Origin: Paracoccus sanguinis
GTDB lineage: Bacteria > Pseudomonadota > Alphaproteobacteria > Rhodobacterales > Rhodobacteraceae
Length of the DNA stretch: 64,000 nucleotides
Reading direction: 5' to 3'
Assembly: GCF_900106665.1 (NCBI RefSeq)
Contig: NZ_FNNA01000001.1
Coordinates: 434,001 to 498,000 of the forward strand
In this document: positions 39,581 to 51,150 of the stretch, one piece after another
Numbering within the stretch: position 1 is the stretch's first letter
Layout: every line of letters begins with the position of its first letter
Made by a program: the position numbers and the translations under genes
The notes under the pieces: model-generated
Databases searched by the model: none
Told to the model about the DNA's origin: nothing
What the model saw: only the letters and a program-made list of their open reading frames with translations

Positions 39581-40792
39581 TCAGCCGAAAAGCTCGCGGC
39601 AGAAGCTCAGCCCCTCGACCAGCGCGTCGACCTCGGCGCGGGTGTTGTAGAGCGCAAAGCTCGCCCGCGCCGAGGCGGGGATGCCGTAGAACTGCATCAG
39701 CGGCATCGCGCAATGCGTCCCCGCCCGCACCGCGATCCCGCGCTTGTCGAGGATCGTGGCGATGTCGTGGGCGTGCGCGCCCTCCATCGTCATCGAGAAG
39801 ATCGCGCCCTTCTGAGCCGCATTTCCCTGCACTGACAACCAGTTGAGCGCCCCGAGCCGCTCGCGCGCATAAGCCCCGATCTCGGCCTCGTGCGCGGCGA
39901 TCCGCGCCATCCCGAGCCCCATGAGATACTCGAGCGCGACGCCGAGGCCGATCTGGTTCACGATCCCCGGGGTCCCCGCCTCGAACCGCAGCGGGGGGTC
40001 GGCGTAGCTGACCGCCTCGCGCGTGACCTCGCGGATCATGTCGCCGCCGCCGAGGAAGGGGCGCATCTCGGCCTGCCGCTCGCGGCGGATCCAGATCGCG
40101 CCCGAGCCCGAGGGGCCGTAGAGCTTGTGGCCGGTGATGCAGTAGAAGTCGCAGCCGAGCGCGGCCACGTCGACCGGCATGTGCACCGCCGCCTGGCTGC
40201 CGTCGACGAGCACCGGCACGTCGGTCCCCCGCGCGATCGCGCCCACGTCCACGATGGTGCCGGTGACGTTCGACATATGGGTGACGGCGATCAGCCGGGT
40301 GCGCGGGCCGACGGCGGCCAGCACCTTGTCGGCGGGCAGGCTGCCGTCCGGCTCGGGTTCGACCCAGCGCAGCACGACGCCCTGCCGCTCGCGCAGGAAA
40401 TGCCACGGCACGATGTTGGCGTGATGCTCGAGCACCGAGAGCAGGATCTCGTCCCCCGGCTGCAGCCGCGGCGCGGCCCAGGCGTAGCTGACGAGGTTGA
40501 TCGCCTCGGTCGAGCCCGAGGTGAAGATCACCTCGTCCTCGTGCGGCGCGCCGAGGAAGCGGGCGATGATCCCGCGCACCCGCTCGTAATTCTCGGTGGC
40601 GAGGTTCGACAGGTGATGCAGCCCGCGGTGGACGTTGGCGTATTCACCCGCATAGGCGCGGCTGATCGCGTCGATCACGACCTGCGGCTTCTGCGCGCTC
40701 GCGCCGTTGTCGAGATAGACCAGCGGCCGCCCGTTCACCTGCGTCGAGAGGATCGGGAAATCGGCGCGGATGGCGTCGAGGTCGAGGCTCAT
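39581..40792 (-). CDS. sufS: cysteine desulfurase SufS
   Basis: 403 aa PLP enzyme that takes sulfur from cysteine for Fe-S cluster assembly. The PLP lysine is in ITGHKLYGPSG; the persulfide-forming Cys is in VRAGTHCAMPLMQF; PLP-phosphate and substrate segments EVIFTSGSTEAINLVSYAW and DGSQAAVHMPVDV are present. SufS-type length and the Cys loop (RAG-THC-AMP) separate it from IscS. It is the last gene of the run coaBC-cysteine desulfurase-sufBCD-Yip1-Yip1-sufS and overlaps the upstream Yip1 gene by 4 nt (ATGA). Confidence 0.95.
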   Translation of the reverse strand: MSLDLDAIRADFPILSTQVNGRPLVYLDNGASAQKPQVVIDAISRAYAGEYANVHRGLHHLSNLATENYERVRGIIARFLGAPHEDEVIFTSGSTEAINLVSYAWAAPRLQPGDEILLSVLEHHANIVPWHFLRERQGVVLRWVEPEPDGSLPADKVLAAVGPRTRLIAVTHMSNVTGTIVDVGAIARGTDVPVLVDGSQAAVHMPVDVAALGCDFYCITGHKLYGPSGSGAIWIRRERQAEMRPFLGGGDMIREVTREAVSYADPPLRFEAGTPGIVNQIGLGVALEYLMGLGMARIAAHEAEIGAYARERLGALNWLSVQGNAAQKGAIFSMTMEGAHAHDIATILDKRGIAVRAGTHCAMPLMQFYGIPASARASFALYNTRAEVDALVEGLSFCRELFG

Positions 40793-44027: not shown

Positions 44028-45569
<1,542 letters not shown>

Positions 45570-45574
45570 CGGCC

Positions 45575-46621
45575 TCACCTTCCCTGCTTGCTCTGCCAGC
45601 GGGCGCGGGCGGAAAGCCACGCGGCGGCAAAGCGGTCCAATTCCTCTGGCGTCGTCGTCGCCCCGAACGACACCCTGAGCGCGCACCCGGCATCCGCCTC
45701 AGGCACGCCCATCGCCCGCAACACCCCGCTGGATCGGACCTTGCCCGACGAGCAGGCCGACCCCGCCGAGACGGCGAAACCGGCGAGGTCCATCTGCATC
45801 ACCTGCGTCTCTCCGCGCCAGCCGGGCGTCAGGATCGACAGCGTCTGCGGCAGCCGGGGGGAATCGCGTCCCGGCAACATAGTGTTTCCGTCATGATCTT
45901 CCAGCCTCATCGCCAGCCGGTCGCGCATTTCGGCCAGTTTTTCCGCCATTCCCGCCGCGAGGTCGCGCTGCGCCGCCACCGCCGCGGCCGCGAAACCGGC
46001 GATTCCGGCAAGGTTTTCGGTGCCGGCGCGGCGCCCGCTCTCTTGCCCGCCGCCGCGCAGCCGGGCCGGACGGTCGGCGCCCGCGCGCAGGATCAGCGCG
46101 CCCACGCCGCGCGGGCCGCCGAGCTTGTGGGCGCTGACGAACCCCGCCTCGACGCCGAGCCAGTCGAAGGCAAAGGGGATCTTGCCGAACGCCTGGGTCA
46201 GGTCGCTGACCGCGAGCCCATGCGGCAGGTCCTGGATCACCCCGGTCTCGCTGTTGGCGAGCTGCAGCGCGGCGCCCGCCGGGTCCGCGACCGTCACCCG
46301 CCCGCTCGCCTCGACCAGCAGCGTCTCGGCGCACCAGGCGCGGACCGCGTCATGCTCGATCCCGGCGCAGGTGAGCCCCTGCCCCTCGAGCGCCAGCGCC
46401 GCCGCCTCGGTCGCGCACGAGGTAAAGACGATGTCGGCCTGCGCCGCGCCGAGCGCCTCGGCCAGCGTCTCGCGCGACCGCTCGAGCAGCATCTTGGCCG
46501 CCCTCCCCTCGGCATGGACGCTCGAGGGGTTGCCGGTCACGTCCAGCGCCTCAGCCATCGCCGCCCGCGCCTCGGGCCGCAGGGGCGCGGTGGCGTTCCA
46601 GTCGAGATAGACGCGGCTCAC
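45575..46621 (-). CDS. cysteine desulfurase, NifS/IscS-type
   Basis: 348 aa, starting with GTG at 46621 that overlaps the coaBC stop (GTGA, 4 nt). NifS/IscS-type features: start [27 protein letters not shown] near the PLP site, [14 protein letters not shown] with the PLP lysine, [13 protein letters not shown] and the active-site Cys loop [19 protein letters not shown]. Having this enzyme at the front and SufS at the end gives two desulfurases in one suf-type operon, an arrangement known in Rhodobacterales. No iscR-like regulator gene precedes it here; coaBC does. Confidence 0.9.
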
Positions 46622-48198
46622 GGCGCCTCGTCCGGCGCGGCCGCCCCCTCGCCCAGCGCCGCGGCGATGCGCCCGGCGAGGCGGCGCGCGACCTCGGTCT
46701 TGGGCAGCCGCGGCCACGGCTCGGCGCCGTCCGCGGTGACGAGCACCACGGCGTTCTCGGCGCCGCCCATGATCCCGGTGACGGGGCGGACGTCGTTGGC
46801 GACGATCCAGTCGCAGCCCTTCCGCGCCCGCTTGGCGGTGGCGTTGGCCACCACATCGTCGGTCTCGGCCGCAAACCCCACCACCAGCGCGGGGCGCCGG
46901 TCCGAGCGGCTGATCCAGGCGAGGATGTCCGGGTTTTCCGCCATCTCGAGCGCCGGGGGCCGACCCGAGCCGTCCTTCTTCAGCTTGCGGTCGGCGGCGT
47001 TCACCACGCGCCAGTCGGCCACCGCGGCGGCCATGACCGCGGCGTCGGCCGGCAGCGCGCCTTCCACCGCGTCGCGCATCTCGCGCGCCGTCTCGACCGC
47101 GATCACCTCGACGCCCGCGGGCGGCGGCACTTCGGCCGGGCCGGTGACGAAGCTGACCCGCGCGCCCAGATCGCGCAGCGCCGCGGCGATCGCGGTCCCC
47201 TGCGCGCCCGACGAGCGGTTGGCAATGTAGCGCACCGGGTCGATCGGCTCATGCGTCGGGCCAGAGGTGACGATGACGTGGCGACCTGCGAGCGGACCGG
47301 GCGCGGTGGGACACGCGGCGCCGGGGTTGGGGCGGTTTGCGCTGGTCGGACCGGCGGATTCCGGTTGGGCCTGCACCGGGCCAGCGGCGCCTGTCGCCGT
47401 ATGGTCCTCTGCGGCAAGACCCGATCCATCAGTCGTGTTGCTCGGCTCCACATTGGTCCCGCCGGCATCAAGCGGCGCATCCTCGCCCATCCCCGCGAGC
47501 GGCGCCACCGTCTCGCCACGCCCAGTTGCCCCCGCCGCCGCGCGGACGGCAGAATCCGGCGTGAGCCGCAGGATGGCGTCGGTCAGCCGCAGCGGCGCCT
47601 CTGCCCCGCGGCCCGTCTCTTCGGCCAAGCCGCCACCCGAACCTGGGCCAGCCGCACCGCCACCCAAGGCCTCGCGGATCGCCGCGACGATTGCCGCAGG
47701 CTCGGCCATCCGCCCCTCGCCCCACTCGCCGCAGGCCATCGCCCCGACATCGGGTCCGACCGTCAGGATCCCGTCGCCGCGCAGGGTCTCCAGATTGCGG
47801 CGCGTGGCCGGATGCTCCCACATCCGCACATTCATCGCCGGGGCGATCAGCACCGGCTTGTCGGTCGCCATGAGCAGGGTCGAGGCGAGGTCGCCCGCCA
47901 GCCCCGCCGCCATCTTCGCCATGAGGTCCGCCGTCGCCGGCGCAACCACGACCAGATCGGCCGCGCGTGACAGCTGGATATGCCCCATCTCGGCCTCGCG
48001 CGTGAGGTCCCAGAGCGCGGTGTGGCACGCCTCGCCCGACAGCGAGGCGAGGGTCAGCGGGGTGACGAACTGCGCGCCCCCCTCGGTCAGGACGGTGGTG
48101 ATCCTGACGCCCGCCCCGGAGAGCAGCCGGATCAGCTCGGGCGTCTTGTAGGCCGCGATCCCGCCCCCGACGATCAGCAGAACCCGCCGCCCCTGCAT
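46618..48198 (-). CDS. coaBC: bifunctional CoaBC (phosphopantothenoylcysteine synthetase/decarboxylase)
   Basis: 526 aa, well above the usual 400. It couples phosphopantothenate to cysteine and decarboxylates the product in CoA synthesis. The CoaC half (1-178) has His73 (GHIQLSRAADLVVVAPATADLM), Asn123 (PAMNVRMW) and Cys156 (ACGEWGEGRM). The CoaB half (from about 303) has SGPTHEPIDPVRYIANRSSG, the KLKKDGSG lysine and VGFAAETDDVV. Between them is an extra 120-residue Gly/Ala/Pro/Thr-rich linker (179-302) of low complexity. It heads the suf-containing run and is preceded by a 7-bp tandem repeat. Confidence 0.93.
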   Translation of the reverse strand: MQGRRVLLIVGGGIAAYKTPELIRLLSGAGVRITTVLTEGGAQFVTPLTLASLSGEACHTALWDLTREAEMGHIQLSRAADLVVVAPATADLMAKMAAGLAGDLASTLLMATDKPVLIAPAMNVRMWEHPATRRNLETLRGDGILTVGPDVGAMACGEWGEGRMAEPAAIVAAIREALGGGAAGPGSGGGLAEETGRGAEAPLRLTDAILRLTPDSAVRAAAGATGRGETVAPLAGMGEDAPLDAGGTNVEPSNTTDGSGLAAEDHTATGAAGPVQAQPESAGPTSANRPNPGAACPTAPGPLAGRHVIVTSGPTHEPIDPVRYIANRSSGAQGTAIAAALRDLGARVSFVTGPAEVPPPAGVEVIAVETAREMRDAVEGALPADAAVMAAAVADWRVVNAADRKLKKDGSGRPPALEMAENPDILAWISRSDRRPALVVGFAAETDDVVANATAKRARKGCDWIVANDVRPVTGIMGGAENAVVLVTADGAEPWPRLPKTEVARRLAGRIAAALGEGAAAPDEAP

Positions 48199-48314
48199 CC
48201 CAGCCTCCGCCTCTCGCCCATGCGCCCTTCGGCGCCTCGACGGGCGCCGGTCACGCCAGTCCTAGGCGACCCGTGGCGGCGGGGCAAGGAATGGGCGGGG
48301 CGGCGCGGGAACCT

Positions 48315-48444
48315 AGCGGCCAGCGGCCAGCGGCCAGCGGCCAGCGGCCAGCGGCCAGCGGCCAGCGGCCAGCGGCCAGCGGCCAGCGGCCAGCGGCCAG
48401 CGGCCAGCGGCCAGCGGCCAGCGGCCAGCGGCCAGCGGCCAGCG
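48315..48444. repeat. 7-bp tandem repeat (about 18.6 copies of GCGGCCA)
   Basis: 130 bases of uninterrupted GCGGCCA units, with no visible mismatch. It sits in the 334-bp gap between the comM stop and the coaBC start, 117-246 bp upstream of coaBC. Because 7 is not a multiple of 3, any frame reads through it as a seven-residue periodic peptide, so the apparent reading frames across it are artefacts. I see no gene elsewhere in the gap. Confidence 0.95.
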
Positions 48445-48532
48445 AGGGGGTGGCTTTCCGAGCCAACGTGCAAGCGGAAATCCGCCTCGCCCGCAAAAAT
48501 GTTTCGTCAGCTTCTCGTTGTTCCCCCCTCCT

Positions 48533-50047
48533 TCACGCCGCCGCGGCAAACGGCAACCGGTAGCTGATCGCCTCGGCCAGATGAGGCGCGCGCACCCGTT
48601 CGCTGCCGTCGAGGTCGGCGATGGTCCGGGCCGTCCGCAGCACCCGGTGATACCCGCGCGCGCTCAACCCCAGCCGCTCGGCCGCGCGCAGGATCAGGCT
48701 GCGGCCCTCGGCATCCGGGGCCGCGATCTCCTCGAGCACCCCGCCCGAGGCATCCGCGTTCACCCGCAGCGTCGGGTGCGCGGCAAAGCGGTCGGCCTGC
48801 ACCGCCCGCGCCGCGGCGATCCGGGCGGCGATCCCGGCGCTGGCCTCGCCCGCCGCGGGCTGCTCGAGATCGCCGATCGCCACCGGCGGCACCTCGATCC
48901 TCAGGTCGAAGCGGTCCATCAGCGGCCCCGACAGCTTGCCGAGATAATCCGCCCCGCACTGCGGCGCGCGGGCACAGGCGCGCGCGGCATCGGCGAGATG
49001 CCCGCAGCGGCACGGGTTCGCCGCCGCCACCAGCAGGAAGCGGCAGGGATAGCGCACGTGTGCGTTGGCCCGCGCCACCACCACCTCACCGATCTCGAGC
49101 GGCTGGCGCAGCGTTTCGAGCACCTGGCGCGGGAACTCGGGCAGTTCGTCCATGAACAGCACGCCATTGTGGGCAAGACTGATCTCTCCCGGCCGCGCCC
49201 CCCGCCCGCCCCCGACCATGGCCGCCATCGAGGCGGTGTGATGCGGGTCGCGATAGGGCGCCGCCCGTGAGATCGCGCCCTCGCTCAGCATCCCCGCGAG
49301 CGACTGGATCATCGACGTCTCGAGCGCCTCGGCCGGCGTCAGCTCGGGCATCAACCCCGGCAGGCGGGCGGCGAGCATCGACTTGCCCGACCCCGGCGGC
49401 CCCACCATCAGCAGGTGATGGCGGCCCGCCGCGGCGATCTCGATGGCGCGCTTGGCGCGCTCCTGCCCGCGGACGTCGGCCATGTCGGGTCCCGGCGCGG
49501 GGGGCCGCACATCCCCGGCCCGCGCCTGCGCCACCGGCGCGCGGCCGGTCAGGTGGTCGACCACCTGCCGCAGGCCCTGCGGCGCCACGACGGGCACCGC
49601 CCCGACCCATGCCGCCTCGGCCCCGCAGGCGGGAGGGCAGATCAGCGTGCGCTGCTCGTCGGCCGCCGCCACCGCGGCCGGCAGCGCCCCGGCCACCGGC
49701 ACCAGCCGCCCGTCAAGCGCCAGTTCGCCGAGCGAAACCACCGTCGCCAGCTCGTCGGCGGGCACGAGATCGAGCGCGGCGAGGATGGCGAGCGCGATGG
49801 GAAGGTCGAAATGCGAGCCCTCCTTCGGCAGGTCGGCGGGCGAGAGGTTCACCGTGACCCGCTTCGACGGCATGGCAATGGCCATCGCGGCGAACGCCGC
49901 CCGGACCCGCTCGCGCGCCTCGCTCACCGCCTTGTCGGGCAGGCCTACGACGGTGAAGGACGGCAGCCCGGGCGACACCGCCGCCTGAACCTCGACCAGC
50001 CGCGCCTCGATCCCGTCAAAGGCGACGCTGTAGGCGATTGCGACCAT
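48533..50047 (-). CDS. comM: ComM/YifB-type Mg-chelatase-like AAA+ protein
   Basis: 504 aa. The N-terminal Lon-like domain (AYSVAFDGIEARLVEVQAAVSPGLPSFTVVGLPDKAVSEARERV) is followed by Walker A (VGPPGSGKSML), an LAHNGVLFMDELPEFPRQVLETLRQPLE Walker B/sensor region and a C-terminal Mg_chelatase_C segment with cysteines (NPCRCGHLADAARACARAPQC) and RLGLSARGYHRVLRTARTIADLDG. ComM is a helicase that extends heteroduplex during natural transformation. A near-perfect CtrA site lies 42-57 bp upstream of the start; comM is known as a CtrA-linked gene in GTA-producing Rhodobacterales. It is the last of rsmI-yraN-gshB-comM. Confidence 0.93.
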   Translation of the reverse strand: MVAIAYSVAFDGIEARLVEVQAAVSPGLPSFTVVGLPDKAVSEARERVRAAFAAMAIAMPSKRVTVNLSPADLPKEGSHFDLPIALAILAALDLVPADELATVVSLGELALDGRLVPVAGALPAAVAAADEQRTLICPPACGAEAAWVGAVPVVAPQGLRQVVDHLTGRAPVAQARAGDVRPPAPGPDMADVRGQERAKRAIEIAAAGRHHLLMVGPPGSGKSMLAARLPGLMPELTPAEALETSMIQSLAGMLSEGAISRAAPYRDPHHTASMAAMVGGGRGARPGEISLAHNGVLFMDELPEFPRQVLETLRQPLEIGEVVVARANAHVRYPCRFLLVAAANPCRCGHLADAARACARAPQCGADYLGKLSGPLMDRFDLRIEVPPVAIGDLEQPAAGEASAGIAARIAAARAVQADRFAAHPTLRVNADASGGVLEEIAAPDAEGRSLILRAAERLGLSARGYHRVLRTARTIADLDGSERVRAPHLAEAISYRLPFAAAA

Positions 50048-50088
50048 CCGGTGCTCCCTCGTTTCGAGGGGACGTTAGCTGCGAGCGG

Positions 50089-50104
50089 TTGAGAAAGAGT
50101 TAAC
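50089..50104 (-). promoter_or_regulatory. CtrA-like site upstream of comM (TTGA-N7-TTAAC)
   Basis: One mismatch to the TTAA-N7-TTAAC consensus. It lies 42-57 bp upstream of the comM start, within the 158-bp gshB-comM gap. Confidence 0.5.
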
Positions 50105-50205
50105 AGCGACCGCGCGAAGGGGAATGCTGTGTGCTGGCGCGTTCCCGACGCATACTTTTAAGGGTGTAGCCAGATACATCGCCGCGAACGCTTCCGTCAG
50201 CGACC

Positions 50206-51150
50206 TTACGCCGCCCGCCGGCGCTCGATCGCCTCCCAGATCAGCGCGGCAGCGTTGACCCCATCGAACCGCTCGAGCTCCTGGATGCCGGTCGGCGAGG
50301 TCACGTTGATCTCGGTCAGCCAACCGTCGATCACGTCGATCCCGACGAAGATCTGCCCCTTCTCGCGCAGGACCGGCCCGATGCGGGCACAGATCTCGCG
50401 CTCACGATCGGTCAGGCCGACCTTCTCGGGCCGTCCGCCAACGTGCATGTTGGACCGGGCCTCGCCCTGCGCCGGGACGCGGTTGATCGCGCCCACGGGT
50501 TCACCGTCCACGAGGATGATGCGCTTGTCGCCCTTGACCACGGCGGGCAGGTATTTCTGCACGATCACCGGCTCGCGGTTCATGCCGCCGAATAACTCGA
50601 GCAACGCCGACAGATTGGCGTCGGCCTGCGGCAAGTGAAAGACGCCCGCGCCGCCATTGCCATAGAGCGGCTTGAGGATGATTTCGCCGTGACGCTGGCG
50701 GAAGCCGCGGATGGCCCGCACGTCGCGGGCGATCATGGTCGGCGGGGTGAGGTCGGGGAAATCGAGAACCATCAGTTTCTCGGGCGAATTCCGCACCCAG
50801 AACGGGTCGTTCACGACCAGCGTGGCCGGATGGATGCGGTCGAGCAGGTGGGTCGAGGTGACGTAGGCCATGTCGAACGGGGGGTCCTGCCGCAGCCAGA
50901 CGACATCGAATCCGGACAGGTCGACGGTCTGCCACTCACCGAAATCGACGTGGTTTCCCGCCTCGCGGCGCAAGGTGACGTCGCGCCCGTGCGCGAGCAG
51001 CCGCCCCTCGTCGAAGATCAGCCGATCGGCCGTGTACTGGAACAGGCTGTGGCCCCGGGTCTGGGCCTCGAGCCCCAGTCGAAAGGTCGAATCCCCGTCG
51101 ATCGAGACCGCCTCGATCGGGTCCATCTGCAACGCGACCTTGAGGCTCAT
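50206..51150 (-). CDS. gshB: glutathione synthetase
   Basis: 314 aa, ATP-grasp enzyme that joins gamma-glutamylcysteine to glycine. Typical parts: [20 protein letters not shown] at the N-terminus, the central ATP-binding [16 protein letters not shown] and [26 protein letters not shown], and the C-terminal [29 protein letters not shown]. It lies downstream of yraN (68-bp gap) and upstream of comM. gshA is not in the window. Confidence 0.96.

Follow-up and report, generated by a model that had tools for sequence, protein, structure and literature searches.

Within the window, a stretch of 64,000 nucleotides of the Paracoccus sanguinis genome, a 7-bp unit is repeated without a mismatch upstream of coaBC. 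This position raises the question of whether the number of units tunes the expression of the CoA and Fe-S genes that follow, or whether the repeat is a by-product of DNA replication with no required function. The evidence from the locus, from other genomes of the genus and family, and from known heptamer systems points to the latter.

A perfect heptamer array in the yifB-coaBC spacer

The genes around the repeat are all read on the minus strand, in the order gshB (50206–51150), yifB (48533–50047), coaBC (46618–48198), a cysteine desulfurase ORF (45575–46717) and a sufB ORF (44028–45686). YifB, a Mg chelatase-like AAA ATPase, matched TIGR00368 with 524 bits (cut-off, 362) and Pfam Mg_chelatase. 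CoaBC (phosphopantothenoylcysteine decarboxylase / phosphopantothenate-cysteine ligase) matched TIGR00521 with 375 bits (cut-off, 220), and SufB matched NF008773 with 896 bits (cut-off, 717). The cysteine desulfurase ORF downstream of coaBC was recognised by Pfam Aminotran_5, and the cysteine desulfurase models match it below their NCBIfam cut-offs. The coordinates of the last two genes are ORF limits, and their start codons are not settled. The intergenic spacer from the yifB stop to the coaBC ATG, delimited by the ORF limits and family matches of both genes, spans 334 bp (48199–48532); the corresponding spacers of eight syntenic relatives measure about 166–329 bp. The best named matches to positions 40001–64000 in the plasmid collection are Paracoccus records with 78.7–81.0% identity, and the best long DNA match within the genus reaches 82%.

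Two other features of this neighbourhood were observed. CoaBC has 526 amino acids here with a long low-complexity linker, and its VTSGPT motif is located at residue 309; in the eight relatives it is at 216–223, and five named Paracoccus records have it at 205. A CCGGGGC/GCCCCGG hairpin, which looks like a dispersed palindromic element, is found in the yifB-coaBC spacer of three of the eight syntenic relatives (L141, L143 and L157) and is not found here.

The array occupies positions 48315–48444, with the unit AGCGGCC on the plus strand and GGCCGCT on the minus strand. Tandem Repeats Finder and an exact period-7 scan gave 18.57 copies over 130 bp, with 100% matches and no indels. The initial annotation had described a mismatch-free repeat of about 18.6 units at these positions, with the unit GCGGCCA, of which AGCGGCC is a rotation, and had placed it 117–246 bp from the coaBC start; both points agree with our analysis (coaBC ATG at 48198, minus strand). 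The array starts at base 89 past the yifB stop, and its other end is 117 bp from the coaBC ATG. In 400 kb of the same genome (twenty 20-kb stretches from one contig, 71% GC), the longest period-7 tract per stretch was 13–18 bp, and three simulated genomes of 3.59 Mb each with equal dinucleotide content gave maxima of 19–21 bp. Therefore, a 130-bp array is far beyond chance, and the locus carries the head-to-tail 7-bp iteration by which bacterial heptanucleotide SSRs are recognised.

An exact search of the 3.59-Mb genome showed that 48315–48444 is the sole site with at least three copies of AGCGGCC, so that a dispersed AGCGGCC family is ruled out for this genome. The G runs inside the array are GG at most on both strands, and a quadruplex reading is ruled out because a GGG run is lacking. 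The GGGNATC repeats of Xanthomonas and Nostoc are also intergenic heptamers, with 2 to 26 units; however, passages of PMC4692102 describe them as dispersed through the genome and G-quadruplex forming, and the present array shares neither property. The TAACTGA repeats of Beggiatoaceae are likewise intergenic heptamer direct repeats upstream of genes. Passages of PMC4679880 describe 169 sets, each with two to six copies and most of them within several nucleotides of a start codon, whereas the present locus has a single long array that ends 117 bp short of the start codon.

The exact number of copies should be read with the assembly in mind. Sixteen pairs of contig ends have exactly 95 bp in common, and there is no other overlap length of at least 20 bp among the readable ends (10 of the 41 ends read as N throughout and were set aside, and a short contig contributed only one of its ends). 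These overlaps indicate a de Bruijn assembly with k=95, and a collapse floor at k=127 was rejected because the contig ends show 95 bp. From graph theory, a pure period-7 array of at least 102 bp would form a loop in a k=95 graph, while one of up to 101 bp would be placeable. The array is longer than this limit; therefore, the 18.6 copies are the assembler's estimate, although the array itself is not in doubt. The doubt that the initial annotation had raised over the assembled copy number was justified. It is a fair question whether the figure of 18.6 has any biological meaning, and that it has none is quite conceivable, though we lean slightly the other way: if the array had been collapsed to the minimum at k=95, about 95 bp would be expected in place of 130 bp, so that some read or pair information was probably used. 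Such an origin of the length is compatible with expansion by slippage. In the same comparison, both ends of one 55341-bp contig (C20) overlap by exactly 95 bp, and it is therefore probably a complete circular replicon.

The coaBC promoter and the array

A predicted −35 hexamer, TTGCCC (48282–48287, minus strand), and a predicted −10 hexamer, TAGGAC (48259–48264, minus strand), are separated by 17 bp in the region between the array and coaBC. The pattern TTG[CT]NN-N17-TA was found upstream of coaBC in all 29 genus loci with a coaBC start, the present locus included. In mononucleotide shuffles, it occurred on average in 0.48 of the 29 loci and never in more than 5, and other spacings from 10 to 25 gave at most 8 of 29. 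The loci were taken from the 30 best matches of 125 genomes, one of which was left out as it had no nearby coaBC start. The pattern was stricter at first (16 of 29 loci) and was relaxed to the present form after looking at the sequences, which should be kept in mind for the count of 29. Five named Paracoccus records have a similar motif, TTGTTC-N17-TATGTG. Judging from its conservation, TTGCCC-N17-TAGGAC is probably the active coaBC promoter. A general consensus scan of 48150–48650 found no promoter, neither for coaBC nor as a second promoter upstream of the array, and no terminator, but the scan is a weak one that overlooked even the conserved coaBC motif.

The array lies 27 bp from the predicted −35 hexamer, on its upstream side, at about −63 relative to a start site inferred near 48252. 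The promoter motif is thus wholly between the array and coaBC, and changes in copy number cannot alter the core spacing or the 5' UTR. The proposal of the initial annotation that such changes could shift promoter spacing is not supported, since the core motif common to all 29 loci is entirely outside the array.

Heptamer arrays in the genus and beyond

Among 125 genomes of the genus, only that of P. sanguinis has at least three copies of AGCGGCC in tandem, and among 394 genomes of the family, it is again the only one with at least four. The reversed control unit was equally found in one of the 394 genomes, which suggests sporadic origins for such arrays. In the eight syntenic relatives, the yifB-coaBC spacer contains no heptamer of at least three copies. 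The array had been described as young or actively maintained; with one carrier in 125 genomes, it can be called young or homogenised.

Elsewhere, AGCGGCC arrays recur sporadically, and a scan of genome contigs gave at least 120 loci. Among the matches listed, the longest array is 128 bp (L119, 3665–3792, a Rhodospirillaceae MAG). It is located directly before a 321-codon ORF, in a position unrelated to coaBC, and TTGACA and TATAAT sequences lie just ahead of it. In 34 loci of the Planctomycetota MAG maxbin.317 (for example, L018, L030 and L055), which were chosen for AGCGGCC, 214 kb contain 103 heptamer tracts of at least 21 bp (AGCGGCC, 58; ACCAGCG, 24), and this genome is apparently rich in heptamer arrays. 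Fourteen Marichromatium loci (for example, L061 and L132), chosen in the same way, contain 24 heptamer tracts of several units in 112 kb, with AGCGGCC tracts of up to 100 bp.

A different heptamer, (CTGCCRY)n, follows yifB in four other Paracoccus genomes. The arrays were found in P. ferrooxidans NCCB 100066 (L237 593–814, 31.7 copies), P. versutus UW1 (L238 642–814, 24.7 copies), P. versutus DSM 17099 (L239 695–819, 17.9 copies) and the genome G118 (L288 4905–4986), whose 11.7 copies could be an assembly effect because it is a draft of about 190 contigs. They begin 21–26 bases past the yifB stop. Over its last 1400 nt, yifB is 98.4–100.0% identical among the four carriers. No CTGCCRY array follows yifB in P. 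pantotrophus DSM 11072 (about 96% yifB identity) or P. denitrificans HAMBI_2443 (about 91.6%). The yifB ends of UW1 and G118 are identical to three decimals over 1400 nt, and their arrays have a common seven-unit variant tail; the pure tract has 18 units in the former and 5 in the latter, a difference of 13. In this other clade, an array comparable to that of P. sanguinis has been homogenised and resized at the yifB end. The initial annotation had expected an unstable copy number, and heptamer arrays beside yifB do vary between close relatives, in other species and with another unit.

These arrays resemble that of P. sanguinis in that a heptamer of similar copy number lies just past the yifB stop in the same genus, but they differ in the unit and in their start (base 21–26 versus 89 past the stop). 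The gene arrangement also differs. In all four carriers, yifB and gshB converge, and the CTGCCRY arrays are therefore not at a promoter, whereas yifB runs into coaBC in P. sanguinis. At least four copies of CTGCCRY occur in 3 of the 125 genus genomes, and arrays of this unit away from yifB were found in G117 (10.9 copies) and G076 (5.9 copies). The three named records (UW1, DSM 17099 and NCCB 100066) have no other site with at least four CTGCCRY units. The reversed control pattern gave nine matches in the DSM 17099 record, which indicates that other heptamer arrays are present there.

We surveyed the yifB end in 117 regions; yifB was located in 115 of them and its stop codon in 113 (some genomes give two regions). 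A period-7 array of at least four copies lies within 250 bp of the stop in 5 of the 113, namely P. sanguinis, the three named records and G118; in one further region, that of G076, such an array lies 1.6 kb away. No period-7 array of at least four copies was found in two 400-kb samples taken elsewhere, one from the P. sanguinis genome and the other from the UW1 megaplasmid. By our own arithmetic, the 300 bp past each of the 113 stops make up about 3% of the 1.11 Mb examined. The gene after yifB is a convergent gshB in 63 of the 113 regions and coaBC in the same direction in 12, with neither recognised in 38, and the orientation of yifB is flipped between clades of the genus.

These counts are weak evidence for a hotspot of heptamer arrays at the yifB 3' end. 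Besides P. sanguinis, only two lineages have an array in the yifB regions, the P. versutus clade inside the 300 bp and G076 outside, and two independent cases after yifB are too few to tell from chance. It is unlikely that the yifB 3' end is a recurrent nursery of heptamers in Paracoccus that has acted in two clades, with array length modulating coaBC-suf expression here. The two clades have different units and opposite gene orientation, with each array just past the yifB stop. If the idea were true, an array beside the coaBC-suf promoter could modulate the expression of CoA and Fe-S genes.

Origin and possible function of the array

We consider the array to be a lineage-specific, near-neutral heptanucleotide SSR that arose by replication slippage and has no required function, with a probability of roughly 0.78. 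The starting point would have been two units that happened to occur side by side in the non-coding DNA separating the yifB stop from the coaBC promoter. Slippage would have expanded this doublet into an array, and continued slippage would keep the array pure, while transcription of coaBC would start from a conserved promoter of its own, beyond the array. Predicted folding of the single strands as DNA (−57.7 and −57.3 kcal/mol; z, −4.51 and −2.83) could help slippage. The hairpin of AGCGGCC is more stable than those of 251 of 300 random units of 71% GC; among 20 units with the same base composition, it comes 12th (a tie with the 11th), and this rank rules out that it is exceptional for hairpins. 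Heptamer arrays of the genus appear, homogenise and resize over short evolutionary distances without needing a promoter, and the present array fits this behaviour. Its purity is the expected product of such turnover and, by itself, no pointer to selection.

The array also agrees with what is recorded for other bacteria. Passages of PMC4692102 state that heptamers are over-represented among bacterial SSRs and that high-GC genomes have more long repeats, and bacterial satellites derived from heptamers are on record in passages of PMC6749651. As in the heptanucleotide SSRs described in parts of these two reports, perfect 7-bp units are joined head to tail in a non-coding spacer of a high-GC genome, and the length varies between relatives, here in the comparable array. 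Unlike such SSRs generally, as those parts present them, the P. sanguinis genome has one long AGCGGCC array, with a unit that is new to the genus genomes searched. The array adds one more case to the already known bacterial heptamer SSRs. Our open-access literature search, which cannot prove absence from print, found no report of this array or of heptamers that follow yifB.

Several points weigh against a near-neutral status. The change in copy number was seen in other species with another unit, and there one of the lengths, that of G118, comes from a draft assembly and could be an assembly effect. The array is also within reach of upstream activators, given its distance of about 63 bp from the inferred start site. 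In addition, a heptamer array upstream of a promoter controls hmwA expression in H. influenzae, according to passages of PMC8262952. By analogy, the length of the array might alter coaBC-suf transcription through DNA shape or through the distance to an upstream activator or a second promoter. The position immediately upstream of the coaBC promoter motif and the varying copy number of comparable arrays are consistent with this idea, and the hmw1A/hmw2A array is similarly a 7-bp array about 100 bp upstream of its gene, with a comparable number of copies (13–38). However, passages of PMC8262952 and PMC2651432 place those heptamers between two promoters of a surface adhesin, where more copies lead to less expression. 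In P. sanguinis, the −35 and −10 hexamers are wholly downstream of the array with a spacing of 17 bp that is constant in all 29 loci, so that core spacing is unaffected. The array is outside the only promoter motif found, and the weak consensus scan gave no second promoter upstream. Moreover, the genes that would be regulated have housekeeping roles, the array was seen in none of the other genus genomes searched, and in the other clade the comparable arrays do not sit at a promoter. Regulation by array length is therefore quite improbable.

The array might instead act as RNA. Read-through transcripts from yifB could fold over it and thereby be ended, blocked or protected, which would insulate coaBC from yifB. 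The minus-strand array RNA has a predicted energy of −95.2 kcal/mol (z, −2.09; equalled by 1 of 200 shuffles). Per base, the spacer from yifB to the −35 hexamer has a stronger predicted fold than any of the other eight compared (−0.549 versus −0.416 to −0.519). The fold of the whole spacer is nevertheless ordinary for its composition (z, −0.34, against +0.76 to −1.82 in the relatives), and the consensus scan of 48150–48650 found no terminator-like site with a T run. Rfam gave no match in 46500–50500 at E up to 1, which rules out the array as an Rfam family, and the same gene pair is kept in relatives that lack the array. We find such a role hard to credit. It is more doubtful still, to the point of being barely credible, that the array codes for a heptapeptide-repeat protein (GQRPAAS on the plus strand, GRWPLAA on the minus strand). 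The unit is stop-free in every frame and ORFs of 78–195 amino acids cross the array, but any 7-mer that lacks a stop necessarily leaves all frames open, the longest ORF through the array is an antisense overlap with coaBC, and no other genus genome searched has an AGCGGCC array.

Two cautions apply to loci of this kind: a repeat upstream of a gene is, on its own, no evidence of promoter tuning, and when an array is longer than the assembly k-mer, its copy number is only an estimate. Use of the array as a strain-typing marker is plausible; it would be a single-locus marker for the species and is probably hypervariable. The P. versutus counterpart is visibly polymorphic; therefore, the birth, homogenisation and resizing of heptamer arrays could be traced at one gene end within a single genus.
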